Assembly (NCBI GenBank): GCA_036496425.1
Contig: DASXLG010000308.1
Span: 1-33,030 of the forward strand
Origin: Terriglobia bacterium
GTDB lineage: Bacteria; Acidobacteriota; Terriglobia; 20CM-2-55-15
Length of the DNA stretch: 33,030 bases
Direction: 5' to 3'
Positions 1-7,341 of the stretch are shown here, in pieces. Within the stretch, counting starts at the first letter, position 1; every line of letters starts with the position of its first letter. The translations under genes were made by a program, and so were the position numbers. The notes under the pieces were generated by a model. It made no database searches, was not told the DNA's origin, and was given only the letters and a program-made list of their open reading frames with translations.

Positions 1-123
1 CTGCAAGCGAGAAGTTTAGAAATGCAGGCTGCAGGTCGCGGCTGCAAGCGAGAAGTTTAGAAATGCAGGCTGCAGATCGCGACTGCAAGCGAGAAGTTTA
101 GAAATGCAGGCTGCAGAGCGGGA
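1..123. repeat. 41-bp tandem repeat array, three copies, cut by window edge
   Basis: Three near-identical 41-bp units start at 1, 42 and 83. They differ only in the last few bases, and a decayed half-unit follows at about 125. Each unit contains two copies of a TGCARGC core (TGCAAGC and TGCAGGC) spaced alternately 21 and 20 bp apart, at 2, 23, 43, 64, 84 and 105. The array probably extends left of the window. The same 20/21-bp architecture recurs at 6052-6372. There are no variable spacers, so it is not CRISPR. Function is unknown. Confidence 0.9.
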
Positions 124-632
124 GTGCAACCTGGGGATTGAGAAATCTCACATGCGCGGTGCAATCGTATCGCTCGTCAGCATCGCGTGTGATTATAGAA
201 CGCGACGTCCGATCCCCCAAAGCGTTGATCTTTGCCAGATGACTTCAGCTGCCCGCTTGGCCTTGAACCGCCTGATAAATGAACACCTTAGCGGAAGCTA
301 AGTTGTTCTTTGCGAGATCCGTCATCCCAGGTTCCCAGAGCCAACGCCCGTGTTCGTGGCACTGGGTGTGGTAGACACACTACTGGATGCTTTGCGTCGG
401 ATTCAGCGTCTGCTTTCAATCGGAATCGGTGTCGGCTTTCGCCGGAATACGCGACCTGATCGAGCTAATAAAGGCACGGGCAATGCAGGAGCCGGACGAG
501 AAGGAGGAATGAGCGTGGAGCGGATCTCTGCAATTCGTTTACGCTCAATGGTCATCTGTTCTGCCCGGCTATGCAAACCACGAGGCGGCGTATGGTTGCT
601 GGAGTGACAGTAGGGTAAAATGGATTTTAGTT
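124..632. other. Intergenic stretch without a supportable gene
   Basis: I see no gene here. Two short open frames exist (104-301, beginning inside the repeat array, and 350-607). Neither has a convincing ribosome binding site, a recognisable motif or protein-like composition. The stretch is probably eroded accessory DNA between the array and the toxin-antitoxin pair. Confidence 0.5.
616..621 (+). promoter_or_regulatory. Possible -10 box (TAAAAT) before the DUF433 gene
   Basis: TAAAAT lies 11 nt before the ATG at 633, and no Shine-Dalgarno sequence lies between them. Transcription from this box would give a very short or absent leader. No convincing -35 element is visible, so this is a weak call. 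Confidence 0.3.
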
Positions 633-1298: not shown

Positions 1299-3233
1299 AT
1301 GGTCGAGGATGAACAACCCAAGTTGAAACGTCGCGCGCCACGAAAACCGGCACGAACGGCGGCAGTTGGAAAAGTCAAGACTGCCGCTTCCGTCGACAAT
1401 CCTGCCTTCTTGGAAGACGTCGTGAGGCGCTTGGAGGGTCGGCAATCAGATAAAAACATCGTGTTGAACGTGCCGATATGGGGATGGACCGGAGACGGTA
1501 AGACTTGTTCGCTACTAACCGCTATCCATTACTGCGACCCTGCGCAGCACCCTCTTGGTCTGGCACTTATTACAAATACCGACGAGCTGACTAAGCTTGA
1601 GAATTCGGCTGAGGAATACAGGGGTTTAAACCTAACCGCGACGGCTGTAGGAACAACTGTTCGTCTCCGCGATCTCTCTGAAAAATTTGTAGATGATTGC
1701 GAGTGGCCCCCTGGTACAGACGAACCATCCGCGTACATTCTCGCAATAAGAAGCATCAGTGGTACGTTAGGTTATGTTCTGTTTCCAGATATTAAAGGTG
1801 GTAGTTTTCGGGAACTCGACGAAACAGCTCGGGATATCTTGAGCAAGGCCCACGCTATTCTGTTGCTTGTGAATCCAGAGCTGTATGTACAGCAAACGAC
1901 CGATGGGAAACGATACAGGGACGAAATATTGGCGCGCCTTCAAGAGTTTGCTGAGGCTGAAGTCCCTGTGTGCATAATGATCACGAAGGCCGATCGTTAT
2001 CAAGGGCCAAACGACGGCGCGGACACCGCATATAATCAACTGACCATAGTTGTCGAACGCCAGAAAAACCTCAAGGCTTTGCTTTGTAGGGTATCCGTTA
2101 TTGGCATCGGCGTACCCATGGAGGACGACAAACTGCCTCTCGCGTCCGCAAGAAAGCCTGAGACCTTGCTGAGGGCATGGATTTGGTTGCTCGCTGAAGC
2201 CCTTCACCGAACCTCCATGGAGATACGGAAGGTTGTCCCTTCGGTTAGTTTTCGGACCAACGGGGAAGGCGCTACACTTTCCGTTCGTACGATACCGGAA
2301 CTACGTCAATTGGGTCACTTCAGTGGTTCGCCTGGACGAGTCTTATGCGCAACAAATGACGACGCGCGGTCAGTTGCATTTACATTTGTGTCCGAGAAGG
2401 GTGAGTTGTTAGAGACTTCCTTGGAGTCAACTGCGATCCAGGAACCCAAGTTCAAAGCTGCCGGTGCAATACCTGGTTGGGCGCACATAGATCTCCTTGC
2501 CCACTATGTTGGAGGTGAGTTCGTTCTTGGCGCTCGGGCAAAGTGTAATTTCGTATGGCAGGGAACGAAAGGCACACATTTAAAAAAGATCTCCCTGCCC
2601 TACGAAATGGTCTCTTGGACCCCTATCACTGGCCGTCGCATTATAGGAGTTGACGCGTCGGGCAGGTTACACTCGTTACATTACGAAGGCGAAAAGTGGT
2701 TGCAAGCAGACTACATTGAAGGATTTTTAAAACCCTCGTCTGTCCTTACTTGCGCTTTTTCGGAGCGGTCCTCTCACGCCTTTGTTTTTAACGGCGATGC
2801 AGTTGAAGGCGTCGTTGTTGCTGCCGATGGAAAATTGGGAAATCGCGTTGCGCCTGATTTGATGGCAAAATTCGATACAACCGACACGATGACTAACAGG
2901 TTAGGACTGTGTTTATCAATCAGCAGCGACGATCAAGCAAGAATTAGCGCTTCAGGTAAGCCCCTTGAACTCGGCCCCGTCTATCCTGATGAGGCGAAAG
3001 CGGCTTGCGCGCTGGCTCCTTATTCAGCACTTCTAGCTCTAATTAACCCCGATCTCAGACTCAGCGCAGCCGCGATCGTGGGCTCTAAAATCATCAAGAC
3101 GAGTCCCGAGAATTCACCACTACTTGATGCTGCTCCTCAAACCATGGTTTGGGCTAACTCTGGTGAATTACTTGCCGTTTCATTTGCCGATAAGACCTGG
3201 CGGTTATTCCGTCCGATGGGCCTTGGCAGTTGA
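1299..3233 (+). CDS. P-loop GTPase with C-terminal propeller-like region
   Basis: This 644-residue protein starts with a basic Lys/Arg/Pro-rich tail (about 1-30). A GTPase domain follows, with Walker A GWTGDGKT (62-69), a G3-type DIKG (164-167) and a G4-type TKAD (229-232). This is the TRAFAC GTPase motif set and gives guanine specificity. A WPPGT segment near 136-140 and the DIKGGSF context resemble the DO-GTPases of NTPase-centred bacterial conflict systems, although I could not test that. Residues 320-640 are beta-rich with WD-like blades, for example MVWANSGELLAVSF near the end, and probably form a propeller. GAGGAG at 1284-1289 supports this ATG. It is the first gene of a cassette, with the next gene 10 nt downstream. 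No signal peptide is seen, so it is probably cytosolic. The precise role is unknown. Confidence 0.85.
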   Translation: MVEDEQPKLKRRAPRKPARTAAVGKVKTAASVDNPAFLEDVVRRLEGRQSDKNIVLNVPIWGWTGDGKTCSLLTAIHYCDPAQHPLGLALITNTDELTKLENSAEEYRGLNLTATAVGTTVRLRDLSEKFVDDCEWPPGTDEPSAYILAIRSISGTLGYVLFPDIKGGSFRELDETARDILSKAHAILLLVNPELYVQQTTDGKRYRDEILARLQEFAEAEVPVCIMITKADRYQGPNDGADTAYNQLTIVVERQKNLKALLCRVSVIGIGVPMEDDKLPLASARKPETLLRAWIWLLAEALHRTSMEIRKVVPSVSFRTNGEGATLSVRTIPELRQLGHFSGSPGRVLCATNDDARSVAFTFVSEKGELLETSLESTAIQEPKFKAAGAIPGWAHIDLLAHYVGGEFVLGARAKCNFVWQGTKGTHLKKISLPYEMVSWTPITGRRIIGVDASGRLHSLHYEGEKWLQADYIEGFLKPSSVLTCAFSERSSHAFVFNGDAVEGVVVAADGKLGNRVAPDLMAKFDTTDTMTNRLGLCLSISSDDQARISASGKPLELGPVYPDEAKAACALAPYSALLALINPDLRLSAAAIVGSKIIKTSPENSPLLDAAPQTMVWANSGELLAVSFADKTWRLFRPMGLGS

Positions 3234-3243
3234 CGAGGCCACT

Positions 3244-4512
3244 GTGACGATAGATATTGCAGCATTCCTACCTGCAGGTGAATGGGCGGAAATTCGTACA
3301 TTAAACAAGCCGCCGGGGATGATGGCGGATCACAATTGGGCGATTTTCGCAAGGGCTAGGTGGCTCCGTGATGGCGGAAAGCCTGGGTTTATCAAGTTCA
3401 TAGTTCGGGCTGGCTCTAAGGCTGGCGCAGATACCGAGATGATAACCGGCCACGATCGGCTTAAGGGCGTTTTCGATCGACTGGTAAGCCTTCAGGCATT
3501 CGGACTTGCGATTCCGCTAGTTCCCCTGTTTGAGGTTCAGCTGAAGGCGGAAGGCCTACTTGTGGCCATGGAAGAACTCGAACCCCTTCACGACATCATC
3601 AAGCGTGGCGAAGCTTACAGTTTATCGCTGAAGATTTTAGAAGACTTGGACCCCGAAAAAGATAAGGGTCCTTCTTGGCTGCATTTCGACATCTGTCCGA
3701 TGAATATTGGTGTTCTTGCCAACGGACGATGTGTTCTCATTGACGTGGAGAGTTTCTATCTTGAAAAAGATGACGTTTTTCAGGTTTCGATACCGGCGTG
3801 GAAGCCGTTTCGCGCACCTCAGGATCTTGTCGACAAGGTTCAGGACCAACTGGCAACGGGATCTGTAGACAAGAGCACCGCATATCTGAAGCAGCGGTAT
3901 GAAATCGCCCTTGCCGCTGCGGAGTGCGTTTTGGGCCCACTGGCCCCCCATGGCAACTTGACTTCATCTGTGCTGAAGACGTGGTTATCGGCCGCAGATC
4001 CAAAGGACCGTGCGGTGCAGTTTTGGGCCAGGACATTACAGGCAGCTCTTGACAACGGGCAGATTCGTCCAATTCGTGAACTGCACGACGAGTTGCAATC
4101 ATCACTCTCAGAAGTCGAGGATGTCGATCATGCGCCGCTCGTCCATGAACCCGTACTTCCGCCGATATCTATAGGAGAAGGGGCGGTTCCTTCAGCGCCC
4201 GGCGGGGGGCCGGAGGGTTGGGAGGAGGACTGGAATCTTCTAAAACCGGCTGCGTACGCCCTGCGGGCCGGTAAGCTTGAGAACGAGCAACTTCCACAAT
4301 ACCGGTTGGCCTTGGAGCGTTTGGCTCGCAAGTATCCGTCGCAGCGGTTATTTTGGAACGAACTCCTACTGGTTGCGATTTCTTATGAAAAGAACGCAGC
4401 TGAAGCATTGGCATATGCCAATGAGGCGTTGCAACACTTACGAGACGATCCCGATTTGAACAGAATGCGGAACATTATTCAGAGATGGGTTACGGAGCGC
4501 CAAAATGGATGA
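3244..4512 (+). CDS. Kinase-fold (protein kinase/aminoglycoside phosphotransferase-like) protein
   Basis: The open frame extends upstream to 3124, but that part overlaps the GTPase gene. GTG 3244 has GAGG at 3235-3238 and gives 422 residues. Kinase-fold landmarks are a lysine in GFIKFI (K51), the hinge-like MEELEPLHD, a catalytic loop HFDICPMN (H147, D149, N154) and a metal-binding LIDVES (D167 in place of DFG). This spacing fits atypical kinases or phosphotransferases, and activity looks possible. A Pro/Gly-rich linker near residues 300-325 leads to a C-terminal helical region with TPR-like helices (about 340-420). The gene overlaps its successor by 8 nt, so the two are probably translationally coupled. 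The substrate is unknown; the neighbouring GTPase or third protein are natural candidates. Confidence 0.8.
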   Translation: MTIDIAAFLPAGEWAEIRTLNKPPGMMADHNWAIFARARWLRDGGKPGFIKFIVRAGSKAGADTEMITGHDRLKGVFDRLVSLQAFGLAIPLVPLFEVQLKAEGLLVAMEELEPLHDIIKRGEAYSLSLKILEDLDPEKDKGPSWLHFDICPMNIGVLANGRCVLIDVESFYLEKDDVFQVSIPAWKPFRAPQDLVDKVQDQLATGSVDKSTAYLKQRYEIALAAAECVLGPLAPHGNLTSSVLKTWLSAADPKDRAVQFWARTLQAALDNGQIRPIRELHDELQSSLSEVEDVDHAPLVHEPVLPPISIGEGAVPSAPGGGPEGWEEDWNLLKPAAYALRAGKLENEQLPQYRLALERLARKYPSQRLFWNELLLVAISYEKNAAEALAYANEALQHLRDDPDLNRMRNIIQRWVTERQNG

Positions 4513-5404
4513 GCTGTATGGCAATCAATCGGCGGCCGTTCAAGTGTGGGGAAAGGGGTATAGAGTAACAGCCGATACCGAAGAGTTTCAGCGGTATGTC
4601 CCCCCATCTACGTCGCCGATAGCTCCACTTGAGAAAAAGCTTGAAACGGTCCCGTGGGGACCATTGCTGGCGCAACTTTATCCTCTTAGCGAACGTGAGT
4701 TGGCAGCGCAGCGTTGTATTTTGTTGGATCAGTCAGCACTGATGGCAGTTGCTTTCGCCCATACAGAGGACCGGCATCGGCGGCCTAGCTTACTGATGAC
4801 GTCAACAACTGTGAATATTAATTGGAATGATTTTGTCATCGGCGATATCGCATCGAAAGCTATTTCACTTTGTACTCGACTCGCCGGTGCTTATGCCGAG
4901 ACAATCAGGGAAAATCCGCAAAGTATCGGTCAGCAGCTGCGAGCTAACGGTTTCCTTCCTGCAAGATTGTTTGACTTGGCCAATGAATATCGAGATACGG
5001 AGCTTGATTGGGGAAACGTTCTGGCAGCCGTGAAGGATTGGCGAGGGATTGTGGGGGTTGGAACGACCAAGTTGGTTTTGCTTGGGGCTAATGTCGTCCT
5101 AGGTACGAAGTTTGAAGCGGAACGAACCCGACAATCCTTTGACGTCGATGGATATTACGACCCGAAGGATAGAGAGATCAAGCCTTTGTCGTCACGACTG
5201 GCACCGTGGGAACCCGGAAAGATAGAAACTCCGCCAGTAGTATCCGGTCCCGTGAGTACGGGTACTTCGCCGGAACTTCACGCCATGGTCCGCTCGATCG
5301 AGACTGTAGCGGCTGCCTTACATCGAATCGCCGACATAGGTGAAAAAGTTACCGCGATAGGTGAAAAAGTTGTTTATTACTTGATTGACAGGCGGAAGCG
5401 TTAA
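4505..5404 (+). CDS. Third cassette protein, unknown function
   Basis: This 299-residue protein overlaps the kinase-like gene by 8 nt (ATGGATGA) and so belongs to the same transcript. I do not recognise it with confidence. The first ~110 residues (QVWGKGYRV, then LLDQSALMAVAFAH and RRPSLLMTS) faintly recall the N-terminal region of GTPase-associated GAP1-type proteins, but this is only an impression. The middle is helical. The tail (about 255-299) is a predicted amphipathic helix with an imperfect IADIGEKV/TAIGEKV repeat and a basic end. No signal peptide or clear membrane segment is seen. Position suggests it works with the GTPase and the kinase-fold protein, possibly as adaptor or effector. 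Confidence 0.75.
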   Translation: MDELYGNQSAAVQVWGKGYRVTADTEEFQRYVPPSTSPIAPLEKKLETVPWGPLLAQLYPLSERELAAQRCILLDQSALMAVAFAHTEDRHRRPSLLMTSTTVNINWNDFVIGDIASKAISLCTRLAGAYAETIRENPQSIGQQLRANGFLPARLFDLANEYRDTELDWGNVLAAVKDWRGIVGVGTTKLVLLGANVVLGTKFEAERTRQSFDVDGYYDPKDREIKPLSSRLAPWEPGKIETPPVVSGPVSTGTSPELHAMVRSIETVAAALHRIADIGEKVTAIGEKVVYYLIDRRKR

Positions 5405-6051: not shown

Positions 6052-6372
6052 ATCCAGGCTTCGACTTTCGAATCCAAGCTTGGATTCACGAGATCCAGGT
6101 TTGGATTTTGAAATTCAGGCCTGGATGTGACACATCGAGGCTTGGAAATCCAGATTTGCGCTTGGATGTGCGGGATGCAGGCTTGGAAATCCAGATTCGA
6201 GCTTGAATGTGCCAGATGCAGGCTTGGAAATCCAGATTCAAGCTTGGATGTGGCGGATGCAAGCTTGGAAATCCAGATTCAGGCTTGGATGTGCCAGATG
6301 CAGGCTTGGAAATTCAGATTCAGGCTTGGATGTGGCGGAAGCAGGCTTGGAAATCCAGATTCAGGTTTGAAT
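6052..6372. repeat. 41-bp tandem repeat array, eight copies of a 20+21-bp unit
   Basis: The GCTTGG core recurs at exactly 41-bp spacing at 6058, 6099, 6140, 6181, 6222, 6263, 6304 and 6345. A second core sits 20 bp after each (6078, 6119, 6160, 6201, 6242, 6283, 6324, 6365). Units differ by several substitutions, but there is no indel in the whole array. The usual half-units are ATGCAGGCTTGGAAATCCAG and a 21-bp ATTCAGGCTTGG form. A perfect 16-bp palindrome, AATCCAAGCTTGGATT, lies at 6071-6086. Forty-one is not a multiple of three, so the open frames across the array (6127-6411, 6207-6446) read the unit in three phases and are unlikely to be genes. Core and spacing match the array at 1-123. 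Confidence 0.93.
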
Positions 6373-6484: not shown

Positions 6485-6691
6485 ATGGAATCGATTCGCT
6501 GGCACTTCGACTGGCACTTTGTTAGTACCGGCGAAAGGGAGCCAATACGATCGGTTTGGAACGGCGTCATTGATTCCACCGAGAAAGCCACAGCGGCCGC
6601 AAGGCTTGGAGAAGGACTCGTTGAGGGCAGAGAATTTCTGCATATTAGAATTATCGCGGCGTCACCTGAGGGCGAATTGAGGTTTCTATGA
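6485..6691 (+). CDS. Small hypothetical protein coupled to nuclease-HEPN gene
   Basis: This open frame of 68 codons from ATG 6485 (74 from TTG 6467) ends in ATGA overlapping the start of the next gene at 6688, which argues for translational coupling. The product is soluble-looking, begins with a Trp/His-rich stretch (SIRWHFDWHF) and has an alpha/beta composition with a REFLHIRIIAA strand near the end. I recognise no family. No clear Shine-Dalgarno precedes either start. It could be a small regulatory or antitoxin-like partner of the nuclease, or a remnant of a longer gene. Confidence 0.5.
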   Translation: MESIRWHFDWHFVSTGEREPIRSVWNGVIDSTEKATAAARLGEGLVEGREFLHIRIIAASPEGELRFL

Positions 6692-7341
6692 GACATCCAG
6701 ATTGGACCCCTGAACGCACGGAACTGGAGCGCGTTGCGCGTCAATACCAAGACAAAGGCTATGACGTCGTTGTGGAGCCCGGCACGAATGAGATTCCGGA
6801 CTTTATTCGCGAATATCGACCCGACATGATCGCGCGGGGTTCCGGGGACTGCATTGTGATTGAGGTGAGGCAGCCTGCGACGGATAGCGAGCGCGAGAGG
6901 ATTCGTCTGATTTCGGAACGCGTCGAACGTCAGCCTGGATGGCGTTTCGTGTTGGTATCCCCCGAAGAACCTGCCTCATCTGTCGCAAACATCCCAACTG
7001 ACACGGAGGTCAGACGTCTGGTTGAAGAGGCACGTGCTCTGACCGCGAAAGGTCATCCGGAAGCCGCCCTCTTGCTCGCATGGGCAGCTCTCGAAGGTGG
7101 AATGCGGGTTGCCGCCTCTCGCGAGGGAGTTGCAGTCCAACGGCCAGACACGTGGTCACTGATGCGAGAACTTGTATCAGCGGGGCTGATCGACCGGCAG
7201 AAGTTCTCTAAGTTAAGTGACGTATTTAAGCTCCGCAGCGCGCTCGCTCATGGTTTGCAAACGGGGAACACTCAGGCTGTTCCCGGGGCTATCGATCTTG
7301 CCGTCACCGTCGCTTCGGAGCTGCTCACCTGGGCATGCTGA
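6688..7341 (+). CDS. PD-(D/E)XK nuclease-like (AHJR-like) protein with HEPN-like C-terminus
   Basis: This 217-residue protein has two parts. Residues 10-95 look like a restriction-endonuclease-fold domain of the archaeal Holliday-junction-resolvase-like type: an RPDMIA strand (D46) followed by CIVIEVR (E59, R61). The usual catalytic lysine of ExK is arginine here, so activity is uncertain. Residues 105-217 are helical and end with RSALAH (R183-H188), the Rx4H motif of HEPN RNases, in the typical LRSALAHG context. Nuclease-HEPN combinations are frequent in defence and toxin loci. The gene sits just after the 41-bp array and the tRNA-associated integrase relics, and is coupled to the small upstream ORF. 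Domain calls rest on motifs only. Confidence 0.75.
   Translation: MRHPDWTPERTELERVARQYQDKGYDVVVEPGTNEIPDFIREYRPDMIARGSGDCIVIEVRQPATDSERERIRLISERVERQPGWRFVLVSPEEPASSVANIPTDTEVRRLVEEARALTAKGHPEAALLLAWAALEGGMRVAASREGVAVQRPDTWSLMRELVSAGLIDRQKFSKLSDVFKLRSALAHGLQTGNTQAVPGAIDLAVTVASELLTWAC

Follow-up and report, generated by a model that had tools for sequence, protein, structure and literature searches.

The window, the stretch of 33,030 nucleotides that we analysed at its full length, comes from a soil Acidobacteriota MAG (the home genome; 4.2% contamination) in which many contigs end inside tandem arrays, and our whole analysis is based on sequence. The closest named chorismate synthase, at 85% identity, belongs to 'Acidobacteria bacterium gp5 AA64'. 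The window contains the following features:

1..129, no strand assigned: second 41-bp array with 20+21 core spacing (CTGCAAGCGAGAAGTTTAGAAATGCAGGCTGCAGATCGCGA), truncated by the contig start
5697-5782: tRNA-Leu
6052..6372, no strand assigned: 41-bp (20+21) tandem dyad array of about 15 half-units, the outer ones degenerate and the inner ones homogeneous
6071..6086, no strand assigned: perfect 16-bp palindrome AATCCAAGCTTGGATT, single, the best-preserved dyad core

The array at 6052-6372 lies past the tRNA-Leu and past sequence in which we read what look like remnants of a phage integrase. Its GCTTGG cores (at least 5 of 6 bases matching) number 15, at 6058, 6078, 6099 and so on to 6345, and the distance from core to core alternates strictly between 20 and 21 bp with zero indels, just as the first-pass annotation had it. 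Tandem Repeats Finder assigns 6113-6369 a period of 41 with 86% matches and 0% indels, and identity at lag 41 is 0.81, compared with a maximum of 0.37 in 2000 shuffles over lags 15-59. The 16-bp palindrome that had been ascribed to the first copies exists, but as one occurrence (6071) and not several. We rejected a coding repeat, as 41- and 20-bp units are out of frame and the array has stops in all six frames. No recognisable promoter was found beside it.

The array at 1-129 was missed in the first-pass annotation. The end of contig C253 (C253:49060-49263) carries the same unit, and the window array at 1-129 appears to continue the array there. Arrays break assemblies, and several genes of the protein family described below sit at contig ends adjoining an array. 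At 633-1235 of the window, a DUF433 gene precedes a DUF5615 gene; the two resemble a toxin-antitoxin pair, and the array on contig C80 has a similar pair beside it. Three unannotated genes occupy 1299-5404, of which the first weakly matches a double-GTPase. This cluster, which adjoins an apparent integrase remnant and the tRNA-Leu, has the look of a mobile or defence island. A gene with an AHJR-like restriction-endonuclease domain (6688-7341) lies 316 bp downstream of the 6052-6372 array.

By whole-genome search, we found a homologue of the 6052-6372 array at C20:41164-41700 (about 13 units, 80% identity), likewise overlooked in the first pass, and weaker homologues on C362, C240 and C84. A short sequence, GGGAATTCAGGTGTGCGCCCCCT, is common to L049:15663 and the end of contig C240, beside two array contigs, and is perhaps a mobile-element end. 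The window and C20 arrays have about 8 and about 13 units, a difference of about five whole units with no fractions, and the orthologous arrays of G004 and G003 have about 5.5 and 4.5 units of 80 bp. Free variation in copy number and spacing, or common indels, had been put forward as grounds to doubt selection on spacing. Here the picture is mixed: copy number does vary, but by whole units, and single-base slips do occur (L250, L042, L056), yet rarely.

The window array has no direct sequence relatives in congeners, with none at E 0.001 in 40 relatives, so searching by sequence is not enough to reveal the phenomenon. When we scanned about 540 kb of the home genome by autocorrelation, non-coding tandem arrays of wholly different sequences appeared that have lags of 20, 21, 40-42, 80-84 and 122-124 in common, and nearly all other tandem signals in the scan had lags divisible by three, as is usual in genes. 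Reading frames are left open in some of the 21-bp arrays and closed in others. Excluding stretches picked for a known array, there are about six arrays per ~450 kb, which suggests about 80 per genome, an order-of-magnitude figure as some sampled contigs were not random. The arrays match no known RNA family in Rfam, and we found no description of such arrays in Acidobacteria in the literature.

Related genes of about 210 codons lie downstream of four of the first arrays. The ~210-aa proteins form an uncharacterised family whose C-terminal domain is of the fibronectin-III type. Searches of Pfam and of PDB sequences gave fibronectin-III as the only match, with none to the ToxN/CptN/TenpN endoribonucleases; the N-terminal part matched nothing, and no recognised DNA-binding motif was found. 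The family has 53 matches in the home genome and 25, 7, 7, 3 and 0 in five congeners, and is absent at E 1e-8 from 35 further relatives; it is a family of about 50 copies that has expanded within the genus. A phage or plasmid origin was rejected, since tblastn against phage and plasmid records came up empty and viral contigs gave no match either.

We scored 65 family copies, drawn from the home genome, four congeners and one distant genome (G222), under a single rule. With an array score threshold set after a first look at the data, an array lies within 1500 bp upstream of 43 of the 65 copies and of 5 of 275 control ORFs, and downstream of 0 of 64 (Fisher p 1.9e-32 for the upstream association); those five are mostly family genes or family neighbours. 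The association holds in the four congeners too, and the majority of the arrays that we identified are located just upstream of a member of this family. A detectable array is missing in 22 of the 65 copies (16 of 44 in the home genome). The best period is 20.0-21.25 bp in 42 of the 43 upstream arrays, and the 43rd, at 124 bp, corresponds to six half-units of 20.67. At C258 and C378, the array is separated from the family gene by another gene. Less than 100 bp lies between the end of the array and the start codon in G222, L266, L270 and L257, where the array may therefore be transcribed.

Among 247 sampled genomes of the phylum, G222, which belongs to another family of the phylum, is the only distant genome with full-length family members. 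Upstream of each of its 4 intact copies is an array with a pitch of 20.5-21 bp and a private sequence. The gene family is missing from fourteen relatives of G222, so transfer, or contamination of the G222 MAG, is possible. The window contig holds no fibronectin-III family gene. In our best explanation, the 6052-6372 array is an orphan copy that lacks its gene or never had one, in a mobile-element-rich stretch beside tRNA-Leu.

Conserved leaders lie 5' of the start codon of family genes at L225, L235, L259, L276, L226 and L227; they resemble covarying hairpins (GGAGAAGG...CCTTCT, CCGGCCGC...GCGGCC), and those loci that were scanned against Rfam gave no match. At L282, L286, L288, L266 and L257, a GC-rich hairpin stands between array and start codon, and its arms change together (CCGCCGGCG/CGCCGGCGG versus GATCGTCGGCG/CGCCGACGATG).

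We then compared sequence and spacing across arrays. At L200, L204, L207, L233 and L237, units are 33-50% identical, and autocorrelation peaks at multiples of 20.0, 20.4-20.5 or 21.0, with a phase that stays coherent to lag ~260. In a minisatellite, spacing would be free to drift as units decay; we saw no such drift at this level of unit identity. The first-pass proposal that selection acts on the spacing itself has good support, both from this retention of phase in diverged units and from dozens of sequence-unrelated arrays at a 20-21 bp pitch. Arrays co-descend with their genes: of the 20 pairs whose proteins are at least 60% identical, 9 have detectably similar arrays, compared with 2 of the 757 pairs below that level. 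They also evolve faster than the adjoining promoter. The proteins of L236 and L238 are 76% identical and their promoters and proximal dyads are alike, whereas their arrays are unrelated, both with a 20.0-bp pitch. In these arrays, spacing seems to outweigh sequence.

The arrays are also symmetric. About 22 of 24 are near-equal to their own reverse complement (identity ~0.5-0.75, compared with 0.37-0.51 for a reversed-only control), so two-fold axes recur every ~10.25 bp. The A/T content has a ~10.25-bp rhythm, in many arrays stronger than the 20.5-bp one. Perfect dyads with 6-bp arms number 168, compared with about 33 in shuffles, although counts inside one array are non-independent. Dyad columns are more conserved than other columns in 17 of 22 arrays (p 3e-4), with some bias towards conserved columns because the dyads were picked from the consensus; the clearest case of conserved arms is GGAACA-n4-TGTTCC at L272. 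Between units, the arms show neither covariation (Watson-Crick cells 1372 observed, 1378 expected) nor a preference for G-U (G-T 320 versus 321.6 expected, A-C 177 versus 178 expected). Arms that are conserved yet independent fit the half-sites of a protein dimer and not a hairpin, and the lack of covariation rules against an RNA hairpin or a cruciform. The earlier suggestion of a protein bound to one face of the DNA is thus plausible, favoured by the dyad symmetry and the non-covarying arms.

Between array and gene, a sigma54-like promoter (GG-N10-GC) scores at least 18 at 16 loci; reversed controls give 1 such locus and reverse-complement controls 6. Immediately upstream of several of these promoters is a separate pair of perfect dyads, ~21 bp apart. 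Many loci lack a sigma54-like promoter; a different promoter-like motif, judged by eye to be roughly GTTRTAYNNAGTAGRGG, is common to other loci. Enhancer-binding-protein genes adjoin 5 family loci (four FHA-type, one then a Ser/Thr kinase), ECF sigma genes adjoin 5 family loci, and at C304 the array takes up the whole interval that separates an activator gene from the divergent family gene. Because of the sigma54-like promoters, the adjacent enhancer-binding-protein and ECF sigma genes and the other promoter-like motif, the fibronectin-III family is probably under alternative-sigma control, with arrays mostly lying upstream of the predicted promoter. As arrays turn over and proximal activator dyads do not (L236/L238), the adjacent sigma54 activator is probably not the array reader; paralogs with unrelated arrays argue against its reading the array by sequence. 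At L320:1345-5062 and L332:136-5998, near array loci or a contig start, an FHA-type enhancer-binding protein gene precedes a Ser/Thr kinase-like gene; together they may form a regulatory cassette controlled by phosphorylation.

Collectively, these patterns are consistent with a model, which we rate just short of an even chance, in which the arrays are tandem operators for putative dimeric DNA-binding proteins on one helix face, with private motifs and a common geometry. Each array would be a lattice of dyad half-sites, occupied by one dimer every two helical turns (20.0, 20.5 or 21.0 bp). Such spacing would place all dimers on one face, where they could contact their neighbours as a cooperative filament, and arrays upstream of fibronectin-III family promoters would presumably set the expression of those genes. 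The dyad motif private to each locus would change fast with the gene lineage while the two-turn pitch is retained. The geometry, the dyad symmetry, the placement solely upstream, the tie to the gene family, the joint descent of array and gene and the conservation of dyad arms are what we show, whereas the bound protein, its cooperativity and its regulatory effect are what we infer here. More doubtful is a stronger version, in which the arrays are a class of cis-elements selected for geometry (a lattice of two-fold symmetry at a two-turn pitch), with a private, fast-changing code per locus, and are inherited together with the lineage-expanded protein family. Every fibronectin-III protein, or else its partner, would then form a polymer on the array of its own locus.

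After operator arrays, a shape-reading protein, a two-turn copying mechanism and a repeat RNA are possible, in that order. If the arrays were architectural, then a sequence-tolerant wrapping protein would read DNA shape (bendable A/T steps at ~10.25 bp) and, upstream of family promoters, assemble a nucleoprotein structure that silences or insulates. Common geometry in unlike sequences is what such a protein would leave, as is an A/T rhythm that in many arrays beats the longer one; but shape reading alone does not predict that specific dyad arms are kept while other positions drift, and a general A-tract pattern is not visible, so we consider both the wrapping protein and its silencing or insulating outcome unlikely.

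We give a similarly low chance to a purely mutational origin, in which copying in steps of about two turns, by slippage or hairpin-templated duplication, would produce arrays that hitch-hike and have no job. Whole units are gained and lost, diverged edge units surround homogeneous inner ones as in minisatellites, and close paralogs show turnover of the whole array, all of which such copying would explain. It does not explain how old arrays keep phase with units ~50% diverged, nor does it account for the restriction of arrays to upstream positions, their link to a single gene family or the conservation of dyad arms. Less probable again is transcription of the array as a multi-unit RNA that acts with a protein, as in type III toxin-antitoxin loci. 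The order of array, GC-rich hairpin and gene, most of all in G222, L266 and L257, would fit, as would the unit length of ~40 and the private sequence of each locus, whereas arms free of covariation and G-U preference, the lack of an Rfam match, a protein that matches fibronectin-III models and not an endoribonuclease, and the promoter between array and gene at many loci all speak against it. Slippage commonly yields tandem 41-mers of ~85-90% identity, but an ordinary minisatellite without significance is very improbable given a pitch common to sequence-unrelated arrays and a gene-family association at p 2e-32.

Several known systems resemble these arrays in part. Upstream activating sequences of sigma54 enhancer-binding proteins also have dyads about two turns apart upstream of sigma54-like promoters, and activator genes are adjacent at five loci here. 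However, our arrays have up to ~30 dyads each and not 2-3, and the promoter-proximal dyad pairs are separate and conserved between paralogs whose arrays differ. Plasmid replication iterons are direct repeats of ~20-22 bp on one helix face, with private sequence and common spacing; the arrays here have no adjoining Rep gene or origin, and consist of dyads rather than simple direct repeats. The plasmid centromeres parC, tubC and parH are tandem repeats upstream of their operon, private in sequence to each replicon, on which ParR, TubR or ParG dimers form a helical filament and repress the operon (PMC5016525). The likeness lies in the upstream tandem repeats and private sequences. In contrast, our arrays are chromosomal and present in dozens of copies, the family protein has no recognised DNA-binding motif, and no ParA/ParM/TubZ motor or centromere-binding protein was apparent among the neighbouring ORFs examined at 20 loci. 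By the criteria for type III toxin-antitoxin loci (ToxI and relatives; PMC8860590), the tandem units upstream of a gene for a ~200-aa protein (43 of 65 copies here), the private repeats and the hairpin between array and gene (G222, L266, L257) are alike. Here, however, promoters are often downstream of the array, the protein is unrelated in sequence, and the units carry no sign of RNA pairing in arm covariation or G-U asymmetry.

Dozens of arrays that have pitch and symmetry in common, and almost no letters, make the constraint of helical geometry directly open to study. If each array has its own reader, then the genome would contain a large number of natural operator-protein pairs that are orthogonal to one another; if a single protein reads all arrays, then shape is what gets read. 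If each family protein or a partner polymerises on its own array, a single chromosome would hold dozens of orthogonal protein-DNA filament systems. The arrays also bring to light an unannotated protein family of more than 50 copies tied to alternative-sigma regulation, and 20-21 bp arrays upstream offer a simple rule for discovering such loci in other genomes.
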